From positions 1 to 28,733 of the IMG/VR virus record IMGVR_UViG_3300046804_006063: a stretch of DNA of 28,733 nucleotides. One strand, written 5' to 3'. Made by a program: the position numbers and the translations under genes. This document shows positions 1,746 through 28,731 of this stretch, in pieces. A model generated the notes under the pieces. The model ran no database searches and was not told the origin of the DNA. It saw only the letters and a program-made list of their open reading frames with translations. How positions within the stretch are numbered: the first letter of the stretch is position 1; every line of letters starts with the position of its first letter. The stretch is from a virus.

Positions 1746-3308
1746 TTAGAACACTGCAATAAATGGCATGGGTTCGATGAATTCATCCTGCCGATCTGAT
1801 ATCTGTTGTTCCAGTTCTGGATGATAATTTTTCAGCACCTGGCTCATGCGTACCACCAGCATCAGCGCCATGACCAAATCGTCAGTCTCACCATATTTAG
1901 CTGCAAAACTGACTCCGCTGCTGATGAATGTTTTGAGTTCGCTCACCAGATTCTTACTGATTATGGTGATTTTGTCGTTTTCAACCAGGCTTTTGAGCTT
2001 GGCACAAGCTGCCAGTTTGGATTTGGGCGTGGTGGTAAAACCTTTGCGGTATCGGCGTGTCTGACCTGCTCTGGCTGGTTCGCTCAGGAACACTCCGTCA
2101 ATGTTCTCCTCACCGATTTCACTGATGCTGACCAGGGCAGCTTCCCCCAGGGTATTGTTTTCCACACTGTAATAGACGTTGTTGACACCTGCTGAATCAC
2201 TGCACCTTTTGACCATTTCTTTCAGCACCTGAATCTGCTTTTGTACCGGTGTGCGATTGTGTTGCCATTCGGCCACCTGAATCATAGTGGGCACTTCAAA
2301 AACTTCAATAGCAGCCATATCGCCGCCGGTGCCCAAGCTGGGGTCCAGTGCCACCAGATACAATCGATCTTTCTGTGGTTTGCGATACCAACGCACTTGC
2401 CCCTGAAGCTCTGCAGGATCCTGACCCTGCATTTCCAGCAACTTCATGCTGTTGATCAGGGTCTCATCAGCCACCACAAAGCTGCATTCATGTTCACGTT
2501 TGAATCGCTCTTCGCCAATACGAGCCATTTCGTCCTGTTTCCACCGTTCATCACGATCTGGGTGTTCATGCCAATAACTGCGATAGGCTTTGAACCCGTT
2601 GATGCCCAGTGGAGTGGGGTTGCCCCATTCATCAGTGCATCGGTTGGCTTGCTTCCAGATCTGAGCAAATTGATCCTCGTCACTGCTGGGCGTGCTGGTG
2701 ATCAGAGCCTTACCACCGGTGCTCAGTGTGGGTGAAATGGAAACCCAGAATTCTCTGGCAATACTGGGTCTGACGAATGCAAATTCGTCCAGGTAAAGCA
2801 GTGTGATACTCATACCTCTGCCGGTGGTTTCTGTGGTGGTTTGTGCCACAATGCGACTGCCATTCTCAAATTCTATACTGCCTTTGTTGTAGCTGACCAC
2901 ACCGGCTCTGATGAAGTCAGGTGTGGATTCATAAGCATATCTGATACGTTGCATGATTTCCTGAGCGCCAGTGTATTTGTGAGCAGCAATCAGGATGGTG
3001 CTATCAGGCACAAACATAGCATACCATAACAGATATCCAGCAGCAGTGGTGCTCTTGCCAGTCTGACGGGGAAGTAGGGCAATGGAGAATCGGTAGTTGT
3101 GGTAGACTTCCAGCAGTCTGATCTGATATTCAAAAGGCTGATACTGGATTTTTCCCCGGGTAGGGTGCTGAATATAAAAGTAGTTGCTCATGAAGTGCAT
3201 GGGTCCTGACACTGGGTCCATGCACTGAGCCAGTTCTGAAATCTGATGTTGAGTCCAGCTCTGGGCCTGATGTGGTTTTTTGATTAGATTGTAGTCCTGA
3301 TTGGCCAT
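1746..3308 (-). CDS. terL: terminase large subunit (T4 gp17-like ATPase and nuclease)
   Basis: This is the DNA-packaging motor, which pumps DNA into the prohead at the portal and cuts the concatemer. The 520 residues carry the full set of motifs. Walker A is RQTGKST (81-87), Walker B is LLYLDEF (170-176) with catalytic E175, and the coupling motif is TSTPSS (204-209). The C-terminal RNase H-like nuclease has D322 in LDPSLGTGGD, E383 in SVENN and D476/D477 in GETDDLVMAL. The length is somewhat below the ~600 of T4. The ATG at 3308 is preceded by a late-promoter box (TGTAAATA) ending six bases upstream and no Shine-Dalgarno, so the mRNA would have almost no leader. It is divergent from the HNH gene. 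Unlike T4, it is separated from the small terminase by about 7.6 kb. Confidence 0.96.
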   Translation of the reverse strand: MANQDYNLIKKPHQAQSWTQHQISELAQCMDPVSGPMHFMSNYFYIQHPTRGKIQYQPFEYQIRLLEVYHNYRFSIALLPRQTGKSTTAAGYLLWYAMFVPDSTILIAAHKYTGAQEIMQRIRYAYESTPDFIRAGVVSYNKGSIEFENGSRIVAQTTTETTGRGMSITLLYLDEFAFVRPSIAREFWVSISPTLSTGGKALITSTPSSDEDQFAQIWKQANRCTDEWGNPTPLGINGFKAYRSYWHEHPDRDERWKQDEMARIGEERFKREHECSFVVADETLINSMKLLEMQGQDPAELQGQVRWYRKPQKDRLYLVALDPSLGTGGDMAAIEVFEVPTMIQVAEWQHNRTPVQKQIQVLKEMVKRCSDSAGVNNVYYSVENNTLGEAALVSISEIGEENIDGVFLSEPARAGQTRRYRKGFTTTPKSKLAACAKLKSLVENDKITIISKNLVSELKTFISSGVSFAAKYGETDDLVMALMLVVRMSQVLKNYHPELEQQISDRQDEFIEPMPFIAVF

Positions 3309-3918: not shown

Positions 3919-4368
3919 TTATTTGCCTTTTTTGCGCCTGCCTGCACAATGAGCTCGTTGGCTGAACCCCTGGGGTCGGGAGCAATTGATACTACGTTTG
4001 TATCGGTTGCTCCATTTTTCTGTGAGCGACTGAATTACATCACTGGCCCGATAGGCCAGGGTCTCAGCTAGTGGTTCGTCAACGTCAGTGAGCTCCAGAC
4101 CCAGTTTTTGCAACAACGGAACCAGTTTGTGTTCCTCTTCTTCACTACCAAATACAATCACCGTTTGTGGCGGGCCCTGCCCAAAATCTTTGCGTTTGAC
4201 ATTCTTTAGGTTGCTGATTGCCTGCCCCACTTTATACCAGTCATATACGTCGCTGACTTTGACTCTGGTGGTGCCAGCAGGCATGGGAATCAGATTGCCA
4301 GTGTAGTGTATTTCTTTGGGTGCTCCTGGAGCGTCTTCGTCTTCAATCAAAAAATCTCGGGCTCTCAT
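3919..4368 (-). CDS. putative capsid-targeted protein (149 aa)
   Basis: The N-terminus MRARDFLIE|D fits the short leader-plus-cut-site pattern shared by its neighbours and resembles the T4 capsid targeting sequence cleaved by prohead protease. The central part has an alternating strand/helix look (PPQTVIVFGSEEEEHKLVP, then LLQKLGLELTDVDEP). The C-terminal ~30 residues are strongly basic and end in RRKKGK, which would suit DNA contact. The ATG overlaps the upstream gene's stop by four bases (ATGA), and AGGA lies about 10 bases upstream. The last codons double as the plus-strand terminator of the convergent HNH gene. No enzyme motif is recognised. The internal head location is inferred. Confidence 0.75.
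   Translation of the reverse strand: MRARDFLIEDEDAPGAPKEIHYTGNLIPMPAGTTRVKVSDVYDWYKVGQAISNLKNVKRKDFGQGPPQTVIVFGSEEEEHKLVPLLQKLGLELTDVDEPLAETLAYRASDVIQSLTEKWSNRYKRSINCSRPQGFSQRAHCAGRRKKGK
3979..4020 (+). terminator. rho-independent terminator of the HNH gene
   Basis: A 14-bp stem, GGAGCAATTGATAC pairing with GTATCGGTTGCTCC around a 7-base loop, is followed by ATTTTTC. Two pairs are G-U wobbles that exist only in the plus-strand RNA, so the hairpin favours that direction. It sits inside the 3' coding part of the convergent 149-aa gene. Confidence 0.8.
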
Positions 4369-4724
4369 CGTTTTTTCCTGGGATGGGCTTTGCTGTTGAA
4401 TGGACTCACACGGTGTGTGTCGTCAGGCTCTGCACTTTTACCCCTGGTCAGATTCTTTATGGATCCAAACCCACCAGCTTTACAGGCATGTTTGATGATG
4501 TTTTCATCAGCATCACTATAGGGAATAAAAAACGGCGTGGTTCCACTAGCACCATGACTAGGCACATTGGGTGGCTCGGGACTGGTGGCCATGTGTAAAC
4601 CAAAACGATACAACCCATAACCCTGATCCACACGTGGCAACATTTTGGCGTTGGGTATTACGCTGTCGTGATCTTTATGTATTTTACCTCGTCGTTTAGC
4701 TTCAAACAGTTCAAAAATTTTCAT
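4365..4724 (-). CDS. putative capsid-targeted protein (119 aa)
   Basis: A small basic protein starting MKIFELFE|A, where L-F-E|A fits the T4 gp21 prohead-protease consensus (I/L)xE|(A/G/S). The rest begins KRRGKIHKDHDSVIPNAKM and ends EPDDTHRVSPFNSKAHPRKK. That style of tail is familiar from short hypothetical virion-associated proteins of uncultured T4-like phages. A late-type box AATAAATA (4745-4752) overlaps the stop codon of the preceding gene and would give a 15-nt leader. The gene overlaps the following 149-aa gene by four bases. No domain is recognised. An internal head protein is the best guess from the leader and neighbours. Confidence 0.75.
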   Translation of the reverse strand: MKIFELFEAKRRGKIHKDHDSVIPNAKMLPRVDQGYGLYRFGLHMATSPEPPNVPSHGASGTTPFFIPYSDADENIIKHACKAGGFGSIKNLTRGKSAEPDDTHRVSPFNSKAHPRKKR

Positions 4725-4744: not shown

Positions 4745-4752
4745 TATTTATT
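4745..4752 (-). promoter_or_regulatory. T4 late-type promoter box upstream of the 119-aa gene
   Basis: AATAAATA, a 7/8 match, overlapping the stop codon of the ADP-ribosyltransferase-like gene. The predicted start is about 4739. Confidence 0.5.
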
Positions 4753-5431
4753 CCGCATACTGTGGAACCAGTATGTCAGTATTCAACACTATGATTTCAG
4801 GTTGATCACCAGTTAGATTAGTCAAACTATCATATCCCATTTTGCGAAAAATACTGTTGACGTCTTTATCAAAATATCTAAGCAACAGATGAACATGACT
4901 TCCGGATGAGTTACCATTGAACATATATTTCTTGATATCTTTGGGCATGGGCTGTCCTGTGATGTTCATTACTTGATCCACCAGCTCTTGTTTTTGTTCT
5001 GGGGTATAGGTTTGAGTTAGATCAAAAGTGTTATGTGGTTTCAAACGATAAGTTTTGATGTGTGGACCCACACCTTTTTGAGCGCCATAGAATTTACTGC
5101 GGCTGGCGCTTCTGGATTGTGCATAACGGTCAGCCACAGCGGGGTCTGGAGTTAGATAGAATCCCAATCCTCTGTTGCCCATGCGAGTTAGATACTGAGC
5201 TCCCCGTGTACTGGGTTTATCAAAATCTCTACTAGTCCCATGATAGTAAACTTGATCGGATGAAAACTTCTCCTCACCCAAATGCTTAAAATATTGAACT
5301 TGCCGTTCACGTTTTTCTGCACCAGATCTGCTGGAGTAACAACCCAGATTACGATTGCTCTTTTTGCTCAGGAGACAATATTTGGAGCCTCGTTTCACTA
5401 TGTGTTCAGGTAGGAAGTCCGAGGCTCGCAT
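4748..5431 (-). CDS. putative packaged ADP-ribosyltransferase
   Basis: The 227 residues begin MRASDFLPE, matching the capsid-targeting-like leader of the neighbours. The segment at ~14-46 (SKYCLLSKKSNRNLGCYSS, then AEKRERQVQYF) is a short basic motif seen in other phage virion proteins. From residue 61 the sequence fits an H-Y-E class ADP-ribosyltransferase fold: VYYHGT with H64, GLGFYLTPDPAVADRYA with Y92, and PEIIVLNTDILV with E212 near the end. Such enzymes bind NAD through the His and Tyr and transfer ADP-ribose to a target. This resembles ART-PolyVal-type domains more than T4 Alt in sequence, but the combination of capsid leader and ART is that of Alt, which is injected with the DNA and modifies host proteins. 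The ATG follows the 29-codon gene after two bases. Activity and target are inferred. Confidence 0.72.
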   Translation of the reverse strand: MRASDFLPEHIVKRGSKYCLLSKKSNRNLGCYSSRSGAEKRERQVQYFKHLGEEKFSSDQVYYHGTSRDFDKPSTRGAQYLTRMGNRGLGFYLTPDPAVADRYAQSRSASRSKFYGAQKGVGPHIKTYRLKPHNTFDLTQTYTPEQKQELVDQVMNITGQPMPKDIKKYMFNGNSSGSHVHLLLRYFDKDVNSIFRKMGYDSLTNLTGDQPEIIVLNTDILVPQYAE

Positions 5432-5636: not shown

Positions 5637-6608
5637 ATGTCTATTAGAACACCCTACACCTACTATCTCTCCCACATCCCCACTGGCCTAAAATATTACG
5701 GAGCCAAATGGGGAGCCAATGCTGACCCTAACACATTTTGGAAAACCTATTTCACCAGTAGCCCCACTATAAAAAAGATGATTGAACTGTACGGATCAGA
5801 TAGTTTTGTGCCTAAAATTCGCAAAATCTTCACTACAGGCACAGAACAAGAAAACATCGAACAATGTATTATGTGGGAGACAAAAGTAATCAGAAAAATT
5901 GTAGGTCACCCAAATTGGGTTAATAGATTCACCGCTAAATGCTCTCACGAAGTTCAGAAAAAAATTGGCAGAAAAAGAATAGCACAAGAAAGACAAATTC
6001 ACGGAGAAGAAGGATTTAGATTGCTACAACAGCAAAGAGGTGTGTTAGCAGGTCAAGAAGCTCTTTCTAGAGACGCTAAATGGTGGGAGAAATTTCATTC
6101 TAAAGGTGGGCAAAAAAATCAAGAAAAACGAGCAAAATTAAAAGATGAATTAGGCGTTGATCCATATCTAACGCCGCAAGGTCGAGCCGCTATGGCAAAA
6201 TCTTGTCAAGAAACATTTAAAAACACTGTTGAGTTATGGCATCCAGATTCTACCGTCACTAACAAAAGTCAGTCCGGCTATATTAACGGCCATTGTATTC
6301 GTTGCAAAGTTAACAGTAATAGATATTATGACTTATTGAATCAAGGCTATATCACAATTAGCGAACACATGAAAAAATTCAACAAAATGTCTAAAAAAGA
6401 TTATCAAAATTTATCACCAGAAGATAAGCTCAAAAGAAAACAGCGTGGTTGGGATAAAATGAGAAAAATCACAGCCCAACAACTTGAAAAAATCATTGAA
6501 CTTAAAAAGTTAAACAAATCTTGGAAAGAAATTTCTCAAGAAGTTGGGCTTGCGGATTGGTACTGTCTTAGACATTGGAAAAAGTCTTCTACTCTTCCTT
6601 GTTCTTGA
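5637..6608 (+). CDS. GIY-YIG homing endonuclease
   Basis: A 323-residue free-standing homing endonuclease. The N-terminal nuclease module has YTYYLSHIPTG (7-17) and KYYGAKWG (19-26) in place of GIY and YIG, then R62 in KIRKIF and E81 in IMWETKVI as the likely catalytic Arg and Glu. The middle is basic linker. A small module around residues 205-245 holds HCIRCKVN and may bind metal. The C-terminus (ITAQQLEKIIELKKLNKSW, then KEISQEVGL) looks like a helix-turn-helix for DNA recognition. The Shine-Dalgarno is GAGGA ahead of ATG. The gene is very AT-rich (27% GC in 6361-6420) compared with its neighbours, opposite in strand to the block it interrupts, and overlaps the convergent gene's 3' end by 20 bases. 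All this fits a mobile insertion. Confidence 0.87.
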   Translation: MSIRTPYTYYLSHIPTGLKYYGAKWGANADPNTFWKTYFTSSPTIKKMIELYGSDSFVPKIRKIFTTGTEQENIEQCIMWETKVIRKIVGHPNWVNRFTAKCSHEVQKKIGRKRIAQERQIHGEEGFRLLQQQRGVLAGQEALSRDAKWWEKFHSKGGQKNQEKRAKLKDELGVDPYLTPQGRAAMAKSCQETFKNTVELWHPDSTVTNKSQSGYINGHCIRCKVNSNRYYDLLNQGYITISEHMKKFNKMSKKDYQNLSPEDKLKRKQRGWDKMRKITAQQLEKIIELKKLNKSWKEISQEVGLADWYCLRHWKKSSTLPCS

Positions 6609-8028
6609 GAATTTGCTGAATCGGTTTTTTAGCCCACATACGACAGCTCCAATAGGCCGCCTTGGTTCTATCACTGGCTCTACCGGTTCCGCAGCCATGT
6701 CGGGCACGAAAGTTCTTGCGGCGTTTGGGATCATCTCGCTTGATTTCCATGTTCTTGTCGCCAAAGTTTACTTTTTTAACATTACCAGTTTTGGAATTCT
6801 TGACATAGACGCTGAATTTTTTAGGACCACTTGGTGTTCTCTTTGGTTTACCCAACTGAACTTCTCGTCCCTGATATTTGGCTTCTGAAATGATCTCAGG
6901 CAATACTTTTTCCACACACTTATCGCAAATATGCTCTTTGGGTCCAACATGGGATTTGATGTAATCTGCCTGTTGTGGATTTTCTCTGGCTAACTCGGCT
7001 CCGCTATATACATCTTTATAGGTCCCATAACAAAAATCACACTCAGGAGCACTGCTGGGATCTTCAGGTGGGTTATAACTATAGGCTTCTGTTATTCCAC
7101 GTTCTTGTGCTAGTTTTTTAAGATCACGTCTATTCAAAGGTGCAATAGATCCAATATCCTTGCGTGTTGGAAAACCCAGTTTTACATAGAGGTCTAAGTC
7201 CTGTGTTGTCATTTTTTCATAAGAACTCCAATCCACAGTGGTGTTAGGCTTTACGCCAGGTCCTTCCAGATAGTGATATATCTTAACTACGTCACCTTCG
7301 TCTTGTTCATAATTCTCTACGCTGTATTTTCCGTCACTGGATCTTACGATATCATCCATCTGATCTTGAAACTGTTCTTGTTCTTTGCGTTTTGTTTCAT
7401 ATTCTTCAGCAGCAGGATGTGTTTGCCCTGTAATAGCTTTCCAGGTTTTTCTAGCTTCTTCGCCTTTGGGGGTATCCTCAAAACCAATATTGTGTAGAAT
7501 TTCCAGATATCTCTTTCTGACTTCTCGGTCTTCACCAAAGGTTTTTCTATAGCTATTTGGACTAGTACCGCTGGTGGAACCCATTACTGGCATTCCAGCC
7601 CCTGATAGATACAGATCCCACATCAGTTTAAGCACCTGATCAGAGTTCTTTTTAGTTTCCAGTGTTTGCCGAAACCAACTGACTTTTTCTGGCTTCATGG
7701 GATATTTGCTGGGCTTACTGATTAATTCAAAAGCAGCATCTTTCATTGCTTGTAAGTCGGTGATGCTTTCCAGGTTTTTAATATCATCAGGAGTAAAGTT
7801 TACGTCTGGCTTTGACAGTTTTGCTTCGGTTAACTGAATCAGACCAGCATTTTCCATAATAGCCACACTGCGTTGATCCAAAGACAAAACAATGCCGTCT
7901 GCTAAAACTTCAGCCACTGTGGTTTCAATCAGCAGTTCCTGGTTGATTTCAAAGCCCACAGTATCGCCCACTGCTGGACGATACTGATGTTGTTCGGCTT
8001 CTGTTAGGTATTGTGCAAAAGTTTTCAT
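6589..8028 (-). CDS. modular capsid-targeted protein with zinc motif (479 aa)
   Basis: The N-terminus MKTFAQYLTE|A is a close match in style to the T4 capsid targeting sequence and its cut site. Further (L/I)xE|A sites occur at LTE68|A, ITE314|A and ISE382|A and fall between apparent modules. Residues 18-65 look like a small beta domain (VGDTVGFEINQELLIETTV). Residues 130-165 contain a conserved phage motif (LMWDLYLSGAGMPVMGSTSG). Residues 175-206 are repeated in the next protein. C330-x2-C333 with C368-x2-C371 form a probable zinc knuckle, and the C-terminal 80 residues are strongly basic with RNFRARHGCGTG and YWSCRMW. The start has an AAGGA Shine-Dalgarno and follows the 744-aa gene by 15 bases. 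A packaged, possibly processed head protein is inferred; no enzyme function is claimed. Confidence 0.82.
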   Translation of the reverse strand: MKTFAQYLTEAEQHQYRPAVGDTVGFEINQELLIETTVAEVLADGIVLSLDQRSVAIMENAGLIQLTEAKLSKPDVNFTPDDIKNLESITDLQAMKDAAFELISKPSKYPMKPEKVSWFRQTLETKKNSDQVLKLMWDLYLSGAGMPVMGSTSGTSPNSYRKTFGEDREVRKRYLEILHNIGFEDTPKGEEARKTWKAITGQTHPAAEEYETKRKEQEQFQDQMDDIVRSSDGKYSVENYEQDEGDVVKIYHYLEGPGVKPNTTVDWSSYEKMTTQDLDLYVKLGFPTRKDIGSIAPLNRRDLKKLAQERGITEAYSYNPPEDPSSAPECDFCYGTYKDVYSGAELARENPQQADYIKSHVGPKEHICDKCVEKVLPEIISEAKYQGREVQLGKPKRTPSGPKKFSVYVKNSKTGNVKKVNFGDKNMEIKRDDPKRRKNFRARHGCGTGRASDRTKAAYWSCRMWAKKPIQQILKNKEE

Positions 8029-8043
8029 TGCTTTTCCTTTATG

Positions 8044-10278
8044 TTAGTCTTGGACTTCTGTTGCACGTACAATTTTGCCATTCTTTACTTTGGGTAAGTG
8101 TTTGTCTTTTACAATACTCTTGGCATGTTTTGCGTCAGTGACATTTTTGATTACATGTGTTTTTGAAGCAATACCTGTACCGCTGGGATCATCATAGCTG
8201 ACTTGAACTTTGAAAGTTTTTTCGCCTTTGCTTTCGTTCATAAATTTATTACGCAAATTCTGAGCCAACTGGTCAACTGATTCGTCCACCATGCTCATGC
8301 TGTTATCTCTTGCAGCATGTGGGTTGTATTGACCGTGTGGAGCATTGGGTCCTCCTGACATATCCACCAACTGAGTTTGTGCATCCAGTGTTTGTGGGTC
8401 AGGTTCGTTGGCTACTTGCTCTCCCACTGGGACAGTTGCAACCGGAGCCGGAGCAACAGCGATACCAGCCATGGCTAAAATCTTCATTAGGTCCTCTGCG
8501 CCTTCACCATCAGCAGTTACAGTCACAGTTTTGTTGCCGGTTTTGCTATCCACATTGGTGGTAACATTCATGCCACTGGCTTGGGGAGCAGCCATGGGGC
8601 CCCAACATTCCATCATCCGCTTCAACTGGCCCAGCTCGGCTGCCCCATCTTGCTCTGATTCTTTTAGTTTCTGGTCATCTTTTTTGAGTTTCTTGGCTAA
8701 CTTGTGAGCTTCTGCAGTCTGTGCATCTGTGAGATCAACTTTTCCTGGTCCAAGATCATACTTTTTCTTGATGGCTGCTGTTGCCACTGCATAGTAATTC
8801 TTTGCTTTAGCTTCAGCTAGTGGGTCTTCACATACACAAGGACTTGCGCCACAGTCTTCGCACATTGCAGCTTCGTCTAAATCATCTTCATCGTCTACAT
8901 CAAAGTCATCATCTTCAGCACCCACAATAGCTGTTTTGTCTTTGTTATAATCCCACATAACCTCATCATCTGCTATCCAAATACAATTTTTTGGATTTTG
9001 AAGAAATTCGTCTAAATCGTCAGGATCTGTTGGTATATTAGCATCAGTAATAGGCTTTATTTTCTGATATTTTTGTTGTATTTGTTTATGTAATTTAATA
9101 CTAAGAGCTTTTAAATCTACTGGAACCCAAGGTTCAATACCATACCCAGTATCTTCTTGAACTTGATTTATTTTATCTATAAATTTAGTGAGATTATCTT
9201 TAGGTACTTTGACTATTAATAATTCTCCATCACTCATCATATAAATCCAACCTACAGGCACAGTGTTTAAATCAGCATTTGTACTAGATTTTTGGGTTTT
9301 TCTGCCTTTAGCTTGTTGATCAGCAGGGTGAGCTTGTCCAGTAGCTGTTTTCCAATTCTCACGAGCTTTCTTACCTTCTGGAGAATTTTCAAATCCTAGA
9401 TTGTGCAACTTTTCTAATTGTGGTCTTGGAACCGCTGGCATTTCAGCTTCGTTCAATTCCCCACCAGTTAGTTCTTCAGCACAATCAGGGCAAATAGTAT
9501 CTTCTGGTTCTAAACCATGTTGGGCATAGCCTTCGCCTGTGCCCAAATCTTCAGCTGACCAGTTTTCTTTCCAATCCTGTCCACAACCCCAGCAAGATAC
9601 ATTGTCGTCAACTTCAAAATGATCAGTATCATAATCATCAGTATCGATAGGTTCGTTACTAATCTCTGGCTTATAATTGCTGGGATTAGAAGTCTTCTTC
9701 ATCTGTCCATACAGTGCATGCTTGGTGGCACTGGCTTCGTCTAATTCGTCAGGGTCACTGTCTTCTGGGCTCATGCCTTCTGCACATTCGTCACACTCAG
9801 CACCGTCACCTGGTTCCCAGTTGGGCATGGGACGTCCACATGTTTCGCAAGTGTGTGGTTCATCTGGTGCACGACGACCCATTGGGGATTCAGACAGTCC
9901 TTGCTCTTCTTCAGCTTTGGTTTGGCAATCCACACACATACCAGTAATGTAATCCACATGCGCCTTATCGCCGCAACTTACACATTGCTTGATAGGACCA
10001 GCTTCATCAGATTCGCTAACTGACTTCTTTAGCTTGTTCAATTCATCAGTTGTTAGATGACGTGTAATTCGGTGATTACATTTAGAACAATGGTTTACAC
10101 CATCCCAGTCATCACTGATACTGGTTTCTGTGTAGTGGCCTTTTTTACACCGAATACAAGGTTCCCCAGACATATCAACCATTTGATGCAGACCCAATGA
10201 AAGTTGTTCTGGTTCAGGATTCGAAGTTTCTTCAGCCAGCAACCCATTCAGTTTGTTCAATAAATTTTGCATATCCAT
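8044..10278 (-). CDS. acidic multi-zinc-ribbon protein, possible polyprotein (744 aa)
   Basis: Five CxxC-pair modules are visible: C41/C44 with C64/C67, C99/C102 with C115/C118, C144/C147 with C162/C165, C230/C232 with C263/C266, and C473/C476 with C481/C483. They are linked by acidic stretches. The leader (MDMQNLLNKLNGLLAE|E) is longer than in its neighbours. Six sites fit (L/I)xE|(A/S): E130|S, E181|A, E277|A, E469|A, E489|A and E540|S, with near-matches at E666|S and E682|S, and they mostly lie between modules. Residues 289-319 repeat a segment of the 479-aa protein. Residues ~335-450 are encoded by markedly AT-rich DNA. AAGGA lies upstream of ATG. A prohead-protease-processed internal protein set is a plausible inference; a simple structural protein is the alternative. 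Confidence 0.8.
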   Translation of the reverse strand: MDMQNLLNKLNGLLAEETSNPEPEQLSLGLHQMVDMSGEPCIRCKKGHYTETSISDDWDGVNHCSKCNHRITRHLTTDELNKLKKSVSESDEAGPIKQCVSCGDKAHVDYITGMCVDCQTKAEEEQGLSESPMGRRAPDEPHTCETCGRPMPNWEPGDGAECDECAEGMSPEDSDPDELDEASATKHALYGQMKKTSNPSNYKPEISNEPIDTDDYDTDHFEVDDNVSCWGCGQDWKENWSAEDLGTGEGYAQHGLEPEDTICPDCAEELTGGELNEAEMPAVPRPQLEKLHNLGFENSPEGKKARENWKTATGQAHPADQQAKGRKTQKSSTNADLNTVPVGWIYMMSDGELLIVKVPKDNLTKFIDKINQVQEDTGYGIEPWVPVDLKALSIKLHKQIQQKYQKIKPITDANIPTDPDDLDEFLQNPKNCIWIADDEVMWDYNKDKTAIVGAEDDDFDVDDEDDLDEAAMCEDCGASPCVCEDPLAEAKAKNYYAVATAAIKKKYDLGPGKVDLTDAQTAEAHKLAKKLKKDDQKLKESEQDGAAELGQLKRMMECWGPMAAPQASGMNVTTNVDSKTGNKTVTVTADGEGAEDLMKILAMAGIAVAPAPVATVPVGEQVANEPDPQTLDAQTQLVDMSGGPNAPHGQYNPHAARDNSMSMVDESVDQLAQNLRNKFMNESKGEKTFKVQVSYDDPSGTGIASKTHVIKNVTDAKHAKSIVKDKHLPKVKNGKIVRATEVQD

Positions 10279-10290
10279 AATACTAATTCC

Positions 10291-10881
10291 TTATCGCTTT
10301 ATATCTTTTACTGAGGGCAATTTAGGCTTGTGGCTGCCCACGGGACTCAGGGTACCTGGCTTCAGATCATTGGTGGTTTCAGCAGCTTTTGCACCACCTT
10401 TGACTTTGACCTGACCTGTACCAGTTATGGAATTCTTCACCAGTTTGGCGTTGTAATCATCACCATATGGGTGCTGAACTTTGACTTTCTCGTACTCACG
10501 CATCAACAAGGGTTCAGTGTCAGTGTTGGCTGCAATACTTTTTGCTTCGTAATCCATGTCTTCAGCAAATGCCAGATTTTCCACTGCCACTGTGGCCTTG
10601 TCCACACTGTAATCAGTCAAACTTTTACGAATCTGTGTGGCAGTTGCAGGATACTCACACACCACATCCAGGGTGTAAATTTCCGGATTGGCCAGCCCTG
10701 GAAACATGGGATGAGCTTTCTCAATCATGTGACTACGGGCATCAGATACTGACTTTACGCCGTAGCCAGCCAGTGCTTGCTTGATGGTTTTGCTGAGGCC
10801 AGCCGCAGGTTTGGTAGCCAAAACAATGCGGAAGCTGTAATCTTGCTTGCTTTCGGTTAGATATTGCAAAAAACTCTTCAT
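10291..10881 (-). CDS. capsid-targeted conserved T4-like protein (196 aa)
   Basis: The start MKSFLQYLTE|S fits the capsid-targeting leader and prohead-protease cut. The core has FRIVLATKPAAGLSKTIKQA, then ARSHMIEKAHPMFPGLANPE and IYTLDVVCEYPATATQIRKS. It resembles a protein conserved next to packaging genes in marine T4-like phages, with a repeated strand-helix pattern suggesting a small alpha/beta fold. The C-terminal 60 residues are Lys/Pro/Gly-rich and probably disordered. A late-type box GCTAAATA overlaps the stop of the upstream small terminase and would give a 16-nt leader containing AGGAAG. The 744-aa gene follows after 12 bases. Function is unknown; a head-internal or scaffold role is inferred. 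Confidence 0.8.
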   Translation of the reverse strand: MKSFLQYLTESKQDYSFRIVLATKPAAGLSKTIKQALAGYGVKSVSDARSHMIEKAHPMFPGLANPEIYTLDVVCEYPATATQIRKSLTDYSVDKATVAVENLAFAEDMDYEAKSIAANTDTEPLLMREYEKVKVQHPYGDDYNAKLVKNSITGTGQVKVKGGAKAAETTNDLKPGTLSPVGSHKPKLPSVKDIKR

Positions 10882-14184: not shown

Positions 14185-15723
14185 TTATTTTGAGTTGGCC
14201 TTATTCCAGACCCATCGAGCATGACCGCAGTCCCAGATTCGATCCCACCCTTGTGATTGCCTGTTTTGCCATTCAGTTAGATCTGGATTATCTTGTGCAT
14301 TTTTGCGCAAAGTGAATCTGTGAATTCTGGTTACATCAGGCAGTGAAAAATACCAATAGCCCGGAGAGGTATGTTTTTCCAACACAAAACCCAGGTTACT
14401 ATAACTGTCTCCAGTAAACCATTTGGAATCGGCATAGCTGACTACAGTGCATGGCTGTACTCGTCGACAAAATTCTGCAAATAATTTACCTGCCCCGCCT
14501 TGAACGATCAAGTCAGCAGAGCCAGCCATTCTTTGTATCTCCCATTCGGTATTTTTTCTGCTGATGTTTTTTTGACTAAACGTCATTGCATATACCAGTT
14601 GATCGTCATGTAGCAATCCCAGTCTGATCTTGCTGGCAGCATAACCGTGAATATGGTTTTTCTCAAAAAAGTTTCGGGCTTGAGCTGTGTCGAGATCTAT
14701 GATTTTGCACTTTCGTGCTGCTAACCGATTGGTAGTGATTCCCAAGTTTCTGATCAGCATCTGTTGAACAATATCTTTTTTGAAAATCCACTCGTCTTCG
14801 AAGATAGTAATAAGTTTGATTCCCTGATCTAGGCATCGTTGCCATTTGATTTGATGATACGCTGATGTCTTTTGTCCAGTATTCTCACTGTGCCAATACA
14901 AACCACAGTATTCAATAGCCAGTTTTTTCTCCGGAATATATATGTCCAGTTCCAGAGGAGTGATGACTGAACGATCGCCCAGTCGCACCGCTGAACTGGT
15001 ATGATTACGAACCCAATCACATATTTCCAATTCGGCTCGGCTATGCAAGGGAGATTTTTCACGACATTTGGGACATATATTGTGCAATATTTGTGATAAT
15101 TTTTGTTTATTGGAATTGGTGAATGTTCGAGTGAAATGAAATCTGCACACATTACATTCACAAATTATGGTATCACGATCGATATCAATCACAGCAATGT
15201 CGTATGATTCCAGCAATTGTTTTCTGTTTTCTATAGTTTGTATCCTGATTTCTTCTCGATGTTGCTGTGTACTGATTAGAATTTTCTTTTTGGTTTCCTC
15301 AGAATGTGTACGACCTGCCATACCACTGGTAATGTAGCCTCGAGATCTTTTAGTGACCACGGCTTTGTGAGCTCTAGTAGATAGTTCTTCTCGATTTGAT
15401 TCTGAATACTTTCTGACAGATTCACTTATTTTTTGCCGAGTCTCAGTTGAATGTGGGTTGCCTCGTAGAAATTCTCCGGCTTGATATCTGGCTTCTCGTT
15501 TTTTTATTCGATCACGGTGAGCTGCTAATAATTCTGGATCAGTGATTTTTTTGCCTCGATTGTGAGGAACTCGCTTTTGTTGCAATTGGCGAGTCTCTTC
15601 GCTGATCGTAGAGCCGTATTGTCTAGAATATTCTCTTCCAGTAATTCCGTGTTCTTTTTGCAAATGTTGGTAGGGTATGATTTTGGGAAACTCCGCATCG
15701 CACAATTGGCATCGTATTGACAT
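14185..15723 (-). CDS. Vsr-like (EDxHD) homing endonuclease with NUMOD repeats
   Basis: A 512-residue free-standing homing endonuclease. An N-terminal zinc finger (C5-x2-C8 then H-type ligands) is followed by NUMOD3-like DNA-binding repeats (NPHSTETRQKISESVRK and MAGRTHSEETKKKIL) and a second zinc module (CECNVC with CPKC). The nuclease is of the Vsr-like EDxHD class known from I-Bth0305I: E231 in AELEI, D260 in LELDIYIPEK, E271 and H278 in IEYCGLYWHSE, and D310 in IFEDEW. The last ~170 residues form a domain I know from Hef-like phage endonucleases but cannot name. A GTG 21 bases upstream is in frame. ATG 15723 is preferred because GAGAGG lies upstream and the perfect TATAAATA box predicts a transcript starting at 15739. 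It sits between tail sheath and tail tube. Confidence 0.9.
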   Translation of the reverse strand: MSIRCQLCDAEFPKIIPYQHLQKEHGITGREYSRQYGSTISEETRQLQQKRVPHNRGKKITDPELLAAHRDRIKKREARYQAGEFLRGNPHSTETRQKISESVRKYSESNREELSTRAHKAVVTKRSRGYITSGMAGRTHSEETKKKILISTQQHREEIRIQTIENRKQLLESYDIAVIDIDRDTIICECNVCRFHFTRTFTNSNKQKLSQILHNICPKCREKSPLHSRAELEICDWVRNHTSSAVRLGDRSVITPLELDIYIPEKKLAIEYCGLYWHSENTGQKTSAYHQIKWQRCLDQGIKLITIFEDEWIFKKDIVQQMLIRNLGITTNRLAARKCKIIDLDTAQARNFFEKNHIHGYAASKIRLGLLHDDQLVYAMTFSQKNISRKNTEWEIQRMAGSADLIVQGGAGKLFAEFCRRVQPCTVVSYADSKWFTGDSYSNLGFVLEKHTSPGYWYFSLPDVTRIHRFTLRKNAQDNPDLTEWQNRQSQGWDRIWDCGHARWVWNKANSK

Positions 15724-15744
15724 TGCTATTGAACCTCTCAACAC

Positions 15745-24723: not shown

Positions 24724-25605
24724 TTATTGCAAAAAATTTGCCCAAGTTTCAATATGATGCTGCCAATCATAATGGTCTCTGGCATATTGTTGCTGAGATT
24801 CACACAGATTCTGATACAGAGTTGGGTTGTCTCTGAGTTCAATCAAATGTTCACAGCATGCTGACATAAAATCAGCCTGATCCAAAGGCAAATGAATTCC
24901 TGTGGGGTTTTCAGCATAATATCCCACTGCTGTGCCCAGGGTAAGTCTGCCAGCCGCAGCAGCTTCCATCATGGGTAGACCTGCACCTTCTTCAATGCTT
25001 GACATAATTATTGCATCTACATTTTGATAAAACTTTGGCATAGCCAAATAATGATGCTGCGGAATTTCCAGAGGAATTCCCAGGCGCTCACTGAGTTGAC
25101 TAACCAATTTGCCTCTCTTGATTTCTTGGCCAGCAAAATTGAAGCTTTCCAAGGCCCCAGCAAATCCCATGCGATTTATCTGAGTGTTGGGTTTATGATA
25201 AAATCTATCAAATTCAATACCCAAGTGAGTAATTTGAGGCACTCTGCAAACACCAAATTCAGCAGATTTCTGTTTGAGAATGTTTGATACTACTGCATAG
25301 CCAGCAAGTTGCTCATATATATTGATTCCAGTTTGGCTGTTGCACAGCAGTATGTCCCATTGACCGTGTGCCATAAAGATTATTTTTTCAGGAGAAATTT
25401 GATATTCATTTATCAGTTTACTGGGGTAATTGGTTACAAAAGCATCAATTGTTTCAGAAATTGATTGCATCTCCTCCAGAGAATAACCTGCGGTGAAGTC
25501 TAAAATTTCACAGTTTACACCATAACTAAAAAGATACTTGCATAAACTAAAATGAATCGTACCCAACGCCCATTTATTTTCTGTATAAAAGACTATTCGT
25601 TTCAC
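24724..25605 (-). CDS. glycosyltransferase, GT-B fold (GT4-like)
   Basis: The 293 residues start MKRIVFYTENKWALGTIHFS with a compact N-terminal half and a better conserved C-terminal nucleotide-sugar domain. The acceptor/donor motif E206-x7-E214 lies in IEEGAGLPMMEAAAAG, and MGFAGALESFNFAGQE precedes it. The GTG at 25605 is chosen over upstream in-frame ATG because it overlaps the stop of the methyltransferase gene by four bases (GTGA), a sign of translational coupling, and because MKRIVFYT is a typical GT-B opening. It is the third sugar transferase in the cassette. The target could be a virion glycan, a host surface molecule or modified DNA; nothing in the sequence decides. Confidence 0.83.
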   Translation of the reverse strand: MKRIVFYTENKWALGTIHFSLCKYLFSYGVNCEILDFTAGYSLEEMQSISETIDAFVTNYPSKLINEYQISPEKIIFMAHGQWDILLCNSQTGINIYEQLAGYAVVSNILKQKSAEFGVCRVPQITHLGIEFDRFYHKPNTQINRMGFAGALESFNFAGQEIKRGKLVSQLSERLGIPLEIPQHHYLAMPKFYQNVDAIIMSSIEEGAGLPMMEAAAAGRLTLGTAVGYYAENPTGIHLPLDQADFMSACCEHLIELRDNPTLYQNLCESQQQYARDHYDWQHHIETWANFLQ

Positions 25606-26183
25606 AAATAAAATACTCCATAATATGCAGTACCATAGCATCCGGATTCAGATAATTGAATCAAATTGGATTGTGATGATCCTATGCAACTATCTAGCAA
25701 TTCTTTTGTTAATTCAATAGGATGACCCTCATGTGGGGGTATATTGACCCATTCGAAAATTCTTAGAGTTTTAGCTGATTTTTTTGCTTGAGATAGCAGT
25801 TTACGAACATCATGCACATGTTGCAAACAATTGTAGATCCAGACCTCATCCCAATCAGTTTCAATGTTGTTTTCACCCAAATCTACTTTGACATCAATGT
25901 TATGTATTGCATATCTGTCCACAGTCCACTTTGGATAAGCAATGGGATCAATAACCAAACCTTTTTTTAGGTTAATACACTTCAGCAACATGGAGGAAGG
26001 GCCTCCGCCAATATCTAAAATTGATTTTCCATGAACATCAAATGAATAATGAGTTCTGGAAAGTTGCATGTATTTTGCATAAACATAGTGTTTTTGATCT
26101 TCATCAAAAGTGTTACAGCAATTGCCCCAGTATGATTTCTCAAAATCGTATTCGTTATAATTTTCCATATATATTTTGTCCAT
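25602..26183 (-). CDS. SAM-dependent methyltransferase (class I)
   Basis: A 193-residue Rossmann-type methyltransferase. SAM-binding motif I is SILDIGGGPSSMLLK (54-68), the acidic loop is GLVIDP (75-80), and motif IV-like DEVWIYNCLQHVHD lies at 112-125. The N-terminal YWGNCCNTFDEDQKHYVYAK is typical of small-molecule methyltransferases found in glycan clusters. A second ATG five codons in (26168) is also possible; neither start has a clear Shine-Dalgarno. Overlap with the following glycosyltransferase by four bases and an 11-base gap from the gene before show an operon. It probably methylates a sugar made by the neighbouring transferases; this is inferred from context. Confidence 0.82.
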   Translation of the reverse strand: MDKIYMENYNEYDFEKSYWGNCCNTFDEDQKHYVYAKYMQLSRTHYSFDVHGKSILDIGGGPSSMLLKCINLKKGLVIDPIAYPKWTVDRYAIHNIDVKVDLGENNIETDWDEVWIYNCLQHVHDVRKLLSQAKKSAKTLRIFEWVNIPPHEGHPIELTKELLDSCIGSSQSNLIQLSESGCYGTAYYGVFYL

Positions 26184-26194
26184 TTAGATGTTGT

Positions 26195-27067
26195 CTAACC
26201 GCAGGCTATATCATTCTGTTGAATTCTTGCAAAACGTTCTGCTTCATATATTTTCTGTGTATCAATGTTTATCACCATACTGTCGTAATTGAGATATTTT
26301 GCAATAACATTTGGGGAATTCCTAATGTCCTGATCACTTAGTTTCATGGTGTTATAACATCCATACCACGGTTGGTTGATTAATGAGTCTATGGTTCCGG
26401 TAAAAACATGGTTTTCGTGAAAATCTGGAATATATTTTTTTTGATGCAACAACAAATAATCACTGTCAGACATCAATGGTAGATAAAACAAGTTACGAAT
26501 TTTTGGCAATGGGTATCTGCCCCACCAGTAACTGTAACTGCACCAGTGTTCACAATTGTTTCTGTAATCCTGATCCATCAAAAAAGGATCCACCAACTGC
26601 CCTATATAACTGCTGCGAAACCAATAAAAATTTCCCTTCCAGTGCCAATGCCATTGGGATCCCACTAAATCTGCTCCAGACTGCAGATGCTCCAAGCAAA
26701 GGGCAGCATGATCTACCAAGCCCAGCAACATATAGTGTTGCCAACTGATTGCGTTCTGCCACTGTGCCTCGTCGTGCTGGCTGGCTCCTTTGCAATGCAA
26801 ATACAGTCCCCAAAAATCAGCTTGTTGCGAATGATGCCACAGGGTTCTCAAGGCTGGAAATTCATAAGCAGAAGCATCCCGGCCAGTGTTGATAAAACAA
26901 ACACGCAATCCAGAAAAGTCACATTCACAAACCCAATCATCACTATGCACAATATAAATCACACAGGTTTTTAGAATGCTTGCACGCAATCTATTCAGGA
27001 TGTAAGCTAAACTGGCATTGGTACGGATCAGCTGATTTACACAGATATATATTCTGATTTCAGGCAT
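26195..27067 (-). CDS. putative glycosyltransferase, RgpF-like
   Basis: A 290-residue protein with features I associate with rhamnan-synthesis F-type and related transferases: an N-terminal strand-helix start (EIRIYICVNQ), NTGRDASAYEFPAL (60-73) like the N-x-GRD motif, FWGLYLHCKGAS (85-96) like the LKLHTKKS motif, and KGNFYWFRSSYIGQLV (144-159) like the GNFWWA segment. It is unusually rich in Trp, His and Tyr. There is no classic DxD. The start overlaps the preceding methyltransferase by eight bases (ATGCCTGA). The class is moderately supported; the sugar and acceptor are unknown. Confidence 0.65.
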   Translation of the reverse strand: MPEIRIYICVNQLIRTNASLAYILNRLRASILKTCVIYIVHSDDWVCECDFSGLRVCFINTGRDASAYEFPALRTLWHHSQQADFWGLYLHCKGASQHDEAQWQNAISWQHYMLLGLVDHAALCLEHLQSGADLVGSQWHWHWKGNFYWFRSSYIGQLVDPFLMDQDYRNNCEHWCSYSYWWGRYPLPKIRNLFYLPLMSDSDYLLLHQKKYIPDFHENHVFTGTIDSLINQPWYGCYNTMKLSDQDIRNSPNVIAKYLNYDSMVINIDTQKIYEAERFARIQQNDIACG

Positions 27068-27605
27068 AATGCACTAGACCAGTGCCGCTCCAATGTCCCA
27101 AACCAGTGAGATCTGTTTTGGGATTACGCACTGATTGCCACCATCGTTGCATGGGTTCATTGAGGTGTATGTCATCCCATAACACCAAACCTGAGTAATG
27201 GTTATCCAAAAACCACTGATGAAATTGAGCTTCCTGAATGCCATCGTGTGGGTCCACATCAACAAATATAAATGGAGCACTCAGTATTAGATCTTTGTCA
27301 TTGCGAAAATCTCCCAATCTGAATTCCACATTATCTGGAACATTGACTATTTTTCTCACATCCACTATATCGTAGCTCACCACGTGATTGTGGCCCTGAC
27401 TCAGAGCCAGTGAGCCACTGCCGTGATAAGTGCCCACTTCAATCAGATTCTGGTTTCGATAATATTGAGCTGTGGCCACTAACAAAACATAGTGTTCTGA
27501 CCCTGACGGGTGTGGAGCACTCAACCCATGCTCACCGAAAATTCTCCTTTGAACATTAGTATCCACATGTTTCACTGTGGCCATTATGTGGTCAATTAGG
27601 TGCAT
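27060..27605 (-). CDS. SAM-dependent methyltransferase (Methyltransf_24-like)
   Basis: The 181 residues show LIEVGTYHGSGSLALS (54-69) as SAM motif I, VVSYDIVD (75-82) as motif II, FIFVDVDPHDG (112-122) with the metal/catalytic acidic cluster, and SGLVLWDDIHL (138-148). This order is that of the O-methyltransferase-like group acting in sugar or secondary metabolite pathways. The frame is open further upstream, but ATG 27605 is chosen. It lies one base after the stop of the upstream glycosyltransferase, and AGGT precedes it in the end of that gene. It overlaps the next gene by eight bases. Confidence 0.83.
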   Translation of the reverse strand: MHLIDHIMATVKHVDTNVQRRIFGEHGLSAPHPSGSEHYVLLVATAQYYRNQNLIEVGTYHGSGSLALSQGHNHVVSYDIVDVRKIVNVPDNVEFRLGDFRNDKDLILSAPFIFVDVDPHDGIQEAQFHQWFLDNHYSGLVLWDDIHLNEPMQRWWQSVRNPKTDLTGLGHWSGTGLVHYA

Positions 27606-27606
27606 A

Positions 27607-28731
27607 TTAGTTACCTGGGTAATATCTACGAAGCCAGTCCAGGTTGGTTCTATCTGGATGATGTTGATACCATCCAGCGCCAGTATACACATCAAAAACC
27701 ATCTGAAAATATTCTTCATACATCTCAGACACTCGATCCAGACTGAAATTATTCATAGCCCATTCACGGCAAGCAGCAGGTCTAATATTACTGATATTGT
27801 TTACTGCCCAACACCAATGATCGAATGTTCTACAACGGTAGCCAGTGATGCCATGCAAATTATACTCGCTGAAAGCTCCCCAATCAGATGTAATAATCGG
27901 ACAACCTGAAAACAGAGCTTCCATAGCTGCACCTCCAAAAGGTTCATTGAACATCGAAGGCAAGAAGAAACCCTTTGCCCGAGACATTAGCTCTTTTCGT
28001 CTGTCTGTATTTGCGTAACCAATATGTTGAATCTTATCTGTTTGTTTATATCCATGTTCTTCTAAAGAACCTTGTCCAGCAATCTTGAGATTTATTCCCA
28101 ATTTATCACAAACTTGATATGCAACATCAATTCCTTTACCTGGATAAACTCTACCCAGAAACAAGAAATAATCTTGTTTTTCTTCAGAGTAAGAAAAATC
28201 TTCTGGATCAAAGTAATTAGGTATTACAGCATGATACCAATCTTCCTTGCATTGACCAACTGCTTCTTTCCCCCCAACTGCTGACCGAATAGCATAAGAT
28301 TCGTAAATTCTAAACTTAGCAAATTGACCTTCAGCATATCCAATTCCAGGTTCAACTACAATAACCTCCTGATGAAAAGCGTCGCAGATTGGTTTATGCC
28401 CCCAACCCCAGAAAGGTAAAAGAAAATCAGTCAGGGTCTTTCTCTTGGCAATTTCTCTGATTGCATTTTTATAGAAAGTTTGATATGCATGATCGCTCAT
28501 ATCAAACTTAAAAAAAGATTTCCTCCAGTCATAAGAACCATAAGCAATCTCAAGATCTTCGTTAGTTGTTACGGTAATATGTTCCGTACAATTAACAACT
28601 GAATCCTCGTGACCATAATGGTAAACCGTATGACCACGTTTGGTCATCATATCACAAAATCTTCTTACCTTGGTGGTGTATGCGCACGCAGAATATTCTT
28701 TATTCGTAACCGTATGAGGAAGTCCTAGACA
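27607..28731 (-). CDS. glycosyltransferase family 4, N-terminus beyond window
   Basis: The frame is open to the right window edge, so the start is missing. The visible protein begins LGLPHTVTNKEYSACAYTTK, which reads as the first strand of a GT-B N-domain, so probably only a few residues are lost. The donor domain has YFLFLGRVYPGKGIDVAYQV, INLKIAGQGSLEEHG and the E-x7-E motif in EPFGGAAMEALFSGCPIITS. These are standard GT4 features. Met codons further in (near 28650) are internal, because the homologous N-terminal strand lies before them. It is the first visible gene of the five-gene glycan cassette, and the cassette may continue to the right. Confidence 0.88.
   Translation of the reverse strand, partial: CLGLPHTVTNKEYSACAYTTKVRRFCDMMTKRGHTVYHYGHEDSVVNCTEHITVTTNEDLEIAYGSYDWRKSFFKFDMSDHAYQTFYKNAIREIAKRKTLTDFLLPFWGWGHKPICDAFHQEVIVVEPGIGYAEGQFAKFRIYESYAIRSAVGGKEAVGQCKEDWYHAVIPNYFDPEDFSYSEEKQDYFLFLGRVYPGKGIDVAYQVCDKLGINLKIAGQGSLEEHGYKQTDKIQHIGYANTDRRKELMSRAKGFFLPSMFNEPFGGAAMEALFSGCPIITSDWGAFSEYNLHGITGYRCRTFDHWCWAVNNISNIRPAACREWAMNNFSLDRVSEMYEEYFQMVFDVYTGAGWYQHHPDRTNLDWLRRYYPGN

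Follow-up and report, generated by a model that had tools for sequence, protein, structure and literature searches.

Alt of bacteriophage T4 is the model for an enzyme that is injected into the host together with the phage DNA. The internal proteins of T4 have a capsid-targeting N-terminus of about 10 residues and are cleaved by gp21 after an L/I-x-E site (PMC9026906). For the ADP-ribosyltransferases (ARTs) found in polyvalent proteins, packaging and injection were predicted by Iyer et al. in 2017, in the same study in which the Tox-ART-HYD2 clade was defined by a His, a Tyr and an Asp in strand 5 (PMC5512222). Head-packaged ARTs, including those of the PolyVal clade, were thus proposed in 2017 (PMC5512222) and were surveyed in 2022 (PMC9503650). 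The ViI-like phages have been reported to be without homologues of Alt and ModA (PMC3184105), which leaves the early host takeover by these phages unexplained.

We analyzed a viral DNA stretch of 28,733 nucleotides, the full length of IMG/VR record IMGVR_UViG_3300046804_006063 (hereafter, the window). An open reading frame on its minus strand, a strand that the sequence-only reading had left unstated, runs from ATG to stop over exactly positions 4748-5431; the plus strand of this interval contains many stops in the same register. The encoded 227-residue protein comprises a leader, a basic cassette and an ART domain. The sequence-only reading had placed the presumed active-site residues at H64 (in YHGT), Y92 (in GFYLT) and E212 (in PEIIV), and in this frame the numbering is correct. 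A 96%-identical copy of the protein is encoded on an independent IMG/VR contig, on which the genes are arranged in the same order. Comparison of this pair shows 20 synonymous and 8 non-synonymous codon changes, corresponding to a rough dN/dS of 0.10, and H64, Y92, D201 and E212 are all unchanged. Because of this conserved copy, the low dN/dS of about 0.1 and the untouched active-site residues, we regard the gene as real and under selection.

As judged from sequence profiles and predicted structure, the C-terminal 174 residues (residues 54-227; positions 4751-5272, minus strand) are an ART domain of the polyvalent-protein type, ART-PolyVal/DUF3990. The 227-residue protein matches the Pfam families DUF3990 (E = 8e-5) and ART-PolyVal (E = 1.7e-4); the scores for ART-PolyVal and DUF3990, 22.8 and 22.7 bits, lie under the curated cut-offs of 31.2 and 32.2 bits, respectively. 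Two related proteins, ORF173 of phage LIMEstone1 and a protein encoded on a 308-kb contig (L123; see below), score above the ART-PolyVal cut-off. The window protein also matches PHROG 4700, a family of unknown function (E = 1e-4); it has no match in NCBIfam or PADLOC, and a phmmer search with the single protein against the PDB gave only chance matches (an influenza polymerase subunit, E of at least 0.14). Since an IMG/VR search with the ART domain alone returned no more than the near-identical contig and a single polyvalent fragment, ART-type relatives were collected from IMG/VR by profile queries, leaving out the window protein itself. When the pair of window-type sequences was aligned by hhalign with 18 ART-PolyVal-type domains, the probability was 99.1%, with an E-value of 4.9e-19, over query columns 2-163, a region that contains the H, Y and E motifs. 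With a profile of the ART group, 20 weak matches were retrieved from the PDB sequences (best E = 0.019), 19 of which are H-Y-type ARTs or relatives of PARP. No match of the 227-residue protein to the Alt family was found in Pfam, PHROGs or NCBIfam. The earlier placement of the protein outside the R-S-E family of Alt, on the basis of an H-Y-E arrangement, is borne out by its motifs and by this absent match, and an R-S-E reading was dropped given the H-Y-E/D motifs and the lack of Alt family matches.

Structure prediction with AF2 gave a low-confidence model for the full-length protein (pLDDT 61), and a combined alignment of cassette and ART domain misaligned the two parts and was left out of the modeling; therefore, the ART domain was folded separately, with a pLDDT of 74.4 and a pTM of 0.73. 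The best match of this model in the PDB is the ART-like region of the cyanophage A4 pre-ejectosome (9k3a chain B; E = 2.5e-5, Z = 9.9, 157 residues), followed by MbcT, tankyrases, NatT, ParT and PARP1 with Z values of 7-8. In a library of viral protein models, the best 40 matches (E ≤ 0.001) include several that are named ART-PolyVal, and the second-best match is a 149-residue protein of Salmonella phage Mutine. As the Z values are middling, the fold argument rests on the observation that nearly all matches are ARTs, together with the sequence profile. The sequence-only reading had suggested examining the protein by structure prediction and fold search, and in the models residues 54-227 are predicted to adopt the split beta-sheet fold of the ART superfamily, in which the NAD site is made by motifs in strands 1 and 2 and in a late strand. 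The outcome that the reading had named as counting against it, a predicted structure without this fold, did not arise. A spurious similarity to ARTs in a protein of some other function, as the sub-threshold Pfam scores and the weak first model might suggest, appears highly improbable to us in view of the profile-profile E-value and of the fact that two separate models both give ARTs as their top PDB matches.

Conservation of the motif residues was counted over 24 aligned ART domains. H64 (codon 5240-5242, minus strand, as are all codons given here) and the YHG motif to which it belongs are invariant (24/24), and the position of Y92 (5156-5158), in the second motif, is Tyr in 20 domains and Phe in 4. 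In the structural alignment, E212 (4796-4798) is in register with the catalytic Glu of PARP1 and tankyrase; it is less conserved (Glu in 16/24) than D201 (4829-4831; Asp in 23/24), which lies in the sequence GYDS and is the most conserved acidic residue. The model of the ART domain contains H64 and Y92; D201 opens a late strand, and E212 sits in the next. Provided that no gap intervenes, and in the usual residue numbering, H64 and E212 coincide with the catalytic His and Glu of the tankyrases and PARP1 when judged by the ends of the aligned ranges. Since D201 is the better conserved of the two acidic residues, and the clade has been described as H-Y-D, the catalytic acid of the window domain may be D201 instead of E212, which makes D201 a candidate for the third catalytic residue.

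The variability of the third catalytic position would also fit a packaged structural protein or pseudoenzyme without transferase activity, in which the ART fold serves as a scaffold or as part of an internal protein associated with DNA; the basic nature of both the cassette and the ART domain (pI 9.2) is compatible with contacts to DNA. We consider this distinctly unlikely, as the window protein and its close homologue, a pair under purifying selection, both keep the H, Y and E residues, and the YHG motif is the same in all 24 aligned domains. An active ART is the reading that we prefer.

At its N-terminus, the protein begins with MRASDFLPE (residues 1-9; 5405-5431, minus strand), in which L-P-E at residues 7-9 conforms to the T4 rule for a capsid-targeting leader ending in an L-x-E site, although it is one residue shorter than the T4 leader and does not have the hydrophobic residue at position 4. 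The capsid-type leader of the sequence-only reading is therefore present as a T4-type targeting motif, and it is found among head genes. A leader scan of the neighboring minus-strand genes revealed similar N-termini (with a slash marking the end of the leader). The next gene (4365-4724, 119 residues) starts with MKIFELFE/A, and a 149-residue protein (3919-4368) with MRARDFLIE/D. On the other side, a 479-residue protein (6589-8028) has the leader MKTFAQYLTE/A, extra internal L-x-E sites and, by Pfam, a DUF5754-like C-terminus; a 744-residue protein (8044-10278) has an L-A-E site at residue 16 and internal L-x-E[AS] sites between CxxC repeats; and a 196-residue protein (10291-10881) starts with MKSFLQYLTE/S and is homologous to gp282 of phage PA5oct. 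Thus, six successive genes on the same strand have an L-x-E-type site near their N-terminus. They lie between the head-closure gene, from which one other gene separates them, and the gene for the terminase large subunit (1746-3308, minus strand; assigned by Pfam and PHROGs), which is 55% identical to that of PA5oct. The run is interrupted by opposite-strand genes of the homing-endonuclease type. In two of the six genes, internal L-x-E[ASGT] sites are more frequent than in shuffled sequences, with p-values of 0.007 and 0.010 that are uncorrected for the 28 genes tested. We found no prohead protease within the 28.7-kb record; a match to Peptidase_S77 was found in 5 of the 23 records tested, most of the others being fragments or possibly divergent.

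Several further features of the surroundings were observed. The repeated CxxC units of the 744-residue protein (8044-10278) resemble zinc ribbons and are set apart from one another by the L-x-E[AS] sites, as in a processed internal polyprotein. Between the ART gene and that of the 479-residue protein, a SegE-like GIY-YIG endonuclease is encoded on the opposite strand (5637-6608), which is absent from the equivalent place in locus L081. A 519-residue protein (14185-15744) lies between the tail tube and sheath genes, where PA5oct has a Hef-like homing endonuclease. Past the tail genes, on the minus strand (24724-28650), genes that look by eye like those of glycosyltransferases and methyltransferases form a cluster.

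Chance matches to loose leader patterns are frequent; such patterns occur in 18% of the 566 ORFs in the compared contigs, versus 4% for the strict pattern. The likeness to a leader could thus be accidental, and an active but unpackaged ART could act in the producing cell, against phage competitors, against host defense or in late modification of the host. The phage ART AcrIF11 works as an anti-CRISPR in the cytoplasm; in addition, DUF3990-like proteins are found among defense candidates, and the LIMEstone1 relative weakly matches PDC-M13/M10 in PADLOC. The six consecutive genes with such a leader speak against this explanation, as does a relative with leader and ART domain that has been reported as a virion protein.

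This relative is LIMEstone1 ORF173 (YP_007237495.1), a protein of 17.3 kDa that is listed among the virion proteins detected by ESI-MS/MS with 11.8% coverage by one peptide (PMC3296691). It has the leader MKTFLQYLQE immediately before an ART-PolyVal domain (E = 5e-12), and its gene is preceded by a putative late promoter. According to the same report, the unknown structural proteins of LIMEstone1 all have structural counterparts in ViI (PMC3296691). The strict T4-frame leader pattern matches three LIMEstone1 proteins, all three of them confirmed by MS (p = 0.007); one of these is probably a chance match, being a tail protein. That leaders generally mark virion proteins in LIMEstone1 was rejected, as looser patterns show no enrichment and only the strict T4-frame pattern is enriched.

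As judged by its terminase (55% identity), PA5oct is the nearest cultured relative of the window virus, and its gene order is similar. Its gp282, which shares 29% identity over 153 residues with the 196-residue leader protein of the window (E = 5e-8), and the product of the next gene, gp281, are both flagged as ESI-MS/MS virion proteins; gp282 retains the sequence MKSFRDYY without an L-x-E site. Elsewhere in the PA5oct genome, gp104 and gp105 are likewise flagged by MS, begin with MKILEFNLTE and VRLNEINLIE, and adjoin a 64-residue gene consisting of a leader and a cassette. Within gp103-gp105 (L143, 3678-5301), HELxHALD metalloprotease-like motifs were noted in two MS-flagged leader proteins. 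On the 308-kb contig mentioned above, a 287-residue ART-PolyVal protein (L123, 2980-3843) has a targeting-like N-terminus, MITKFKIFEFIQITE. By analogy with LIMEstone1 ORF173 and the PA5oct virion proteins, we infer that the window protein is packaged; an unpackaged enzyme of the kind described above seems rather unlikely to us.

The region between the leader and the ART domain (residues 10-53; 5273-5404, minus strand) is a basic cassette of 44 residues with a pI of 10.1, which ends in L-G-E and, according to a homologue search and a model, has a predicted beta-beta-beta-alpha topology. The sequence-only reading had described a single basic N-terminal segment; a basic part is indeed present, but the segment consists of two pieces, the leader and this separate conserved module. 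The suggestion in that reading that the segment might bind DNA or protein in the head was a useful lead, as the module proves to be recurrent. The 137 stretches in IMG/VR that encode a relative of the 227-residue protein do so nearly all via the cassette. Among copies whose counts are inflated by related sequences, a Glu directly precedes the cassette in 60 of 60 distinct copies, which is a further point against an accidental leader, and a hydrophobic residue stands two positions before this Glu in 53 of 60. A Glu within a few residues after the cassette is found in 39 of the 41 protein-internal copies versus none of the 15 C-terminal ones.

The cassette is fused to a variety of partners, including ART, Nudix, cytidine deaminase, dual-specificity phosphatase, cytidylyltransferase-like, sigma-70 region 4 and Acb1-like domains as well as several DUFs, and some proteins consist of leader and cassette only. 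A specificity for ARTs was rejected given these many unrelated partner domains, as was repetition within a genome, since each of the 22 positive records contains one copy. In two loci (L010 and L014), leader and cassette are fused to a cytidine-deaminase domain, possibly an injected deaminase. RB43 gp57B (L087, 2518-3141), a homologue of T4 57B, has a C-terminal cassette after D-I-T-E; its full-length form is common to about 180 phage records, and homologues of T4 57B and RB43 gp57B are annotated as anti-CBASS in some relatives. In some siphophages (L150, L151 and L152), the module forms the N-terminus of an annotated prohead protease or coat protein and has no flanking Glu. This occurrence suggests that the cassette is a module of the prohead interior, which T4-like phages frame with protease sites. 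It could then be a mobile packaging element that aids the loading of fused effectors into the prohead and is excised at the flanking (hydrophobic)-x-E sites, a tentative view to which we would give slightly less than an even chance; alternatively, the flanking Glu could be structural instead of part of a protease site.

Taken together, we think it probable that the window protein is an ART that this T4-like phage loads into its head and injects with its DNA. It would be made late, together with the head and tail genes, and its leader, perhaps aided by the basic cassette, would recruit it to the prohead's scaffold core. There, a T4-type prohead protease would cleave after LPE9, and probably after LGE53, to release an ART domain of about 20 kDa, which would exit the head with the DNA. 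In the host, the domain would bind NAD+ via H64 and Y92, use as the catalytic acid either E212 or D201, the better conserved of the two, and move ADP-ribose onto a host molecule, aiding early takeover or counter-defense.

This proposal is of wider interest because the ViI-like phages are reported to be without homologues of Alt and ModA and because the cassette may be a more general mark of effectors that are injected. For the injected enzyme that is missing there, the leader-bearing, virion-associated ART-PolyVal protein of the ViI group and its cousin described here are direct candidates. Should the cassette be a packaging tag, it would provide a sequence signature for injected effectors, including possible counter-defense enzymes, in uncultured phages.

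In its overall design, the window protein is closest to LIMEstone1 ORF173 and its homologues in Kuttervirus (Ackermannviridae), in which a targeting-like leader directly precedes a small ART-PolyVal domain that has the H, Y and E residues. ORF173, however, is without the 44-residue cassette, has another genome position and shares 34% identity with the window protein over 79 residues; in the Ackermannviridae, a divergent cassette with a leader sits in a separate small gene, outside the ART protein. The ARTs of polyvalent proteins (Tox-ART-HYD2/ART-PolyVal, PF18760) share the fold and the motifs YHG[TS]...GFYxT...GYD[GS], but are embedded in large multidomain proteins and have been described as H-Y-D, whereas the window protein is small and has a T4-type leader. 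The closest solved structure, the pre-ejectosome protein of cyanophage A4, comes from a virion ejection complex of another type of phage and is a very large protein that is ART-like in one of its segments. T4 Alt, as proposed here for the window protein, is predicted to be a head-packaged, protease-processed and injected ART, but it is much larger and of the R-S-E type. As Alt belongs to a different ART clade, the role of the window protein would be analogous to that of Alt, not homologous. The T4 internal proteins IPI-IPIII share the capsid-targeting leader of about 10 residues that is cut after L/I-x-E; to our knowledge, their cargo is not an ART. The novelty that the sequence-only reading saw in a small injected ART was overstated, as packaging and injection were proposed for the PolyVal clade in 2017 and databases already list small stand-alone proteins under the name ART-PolyVal. 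What is new here is the combination of leader, cassette and ART domain in one protein, and its less expected part is the cassette, which recurs on other phage effectors.
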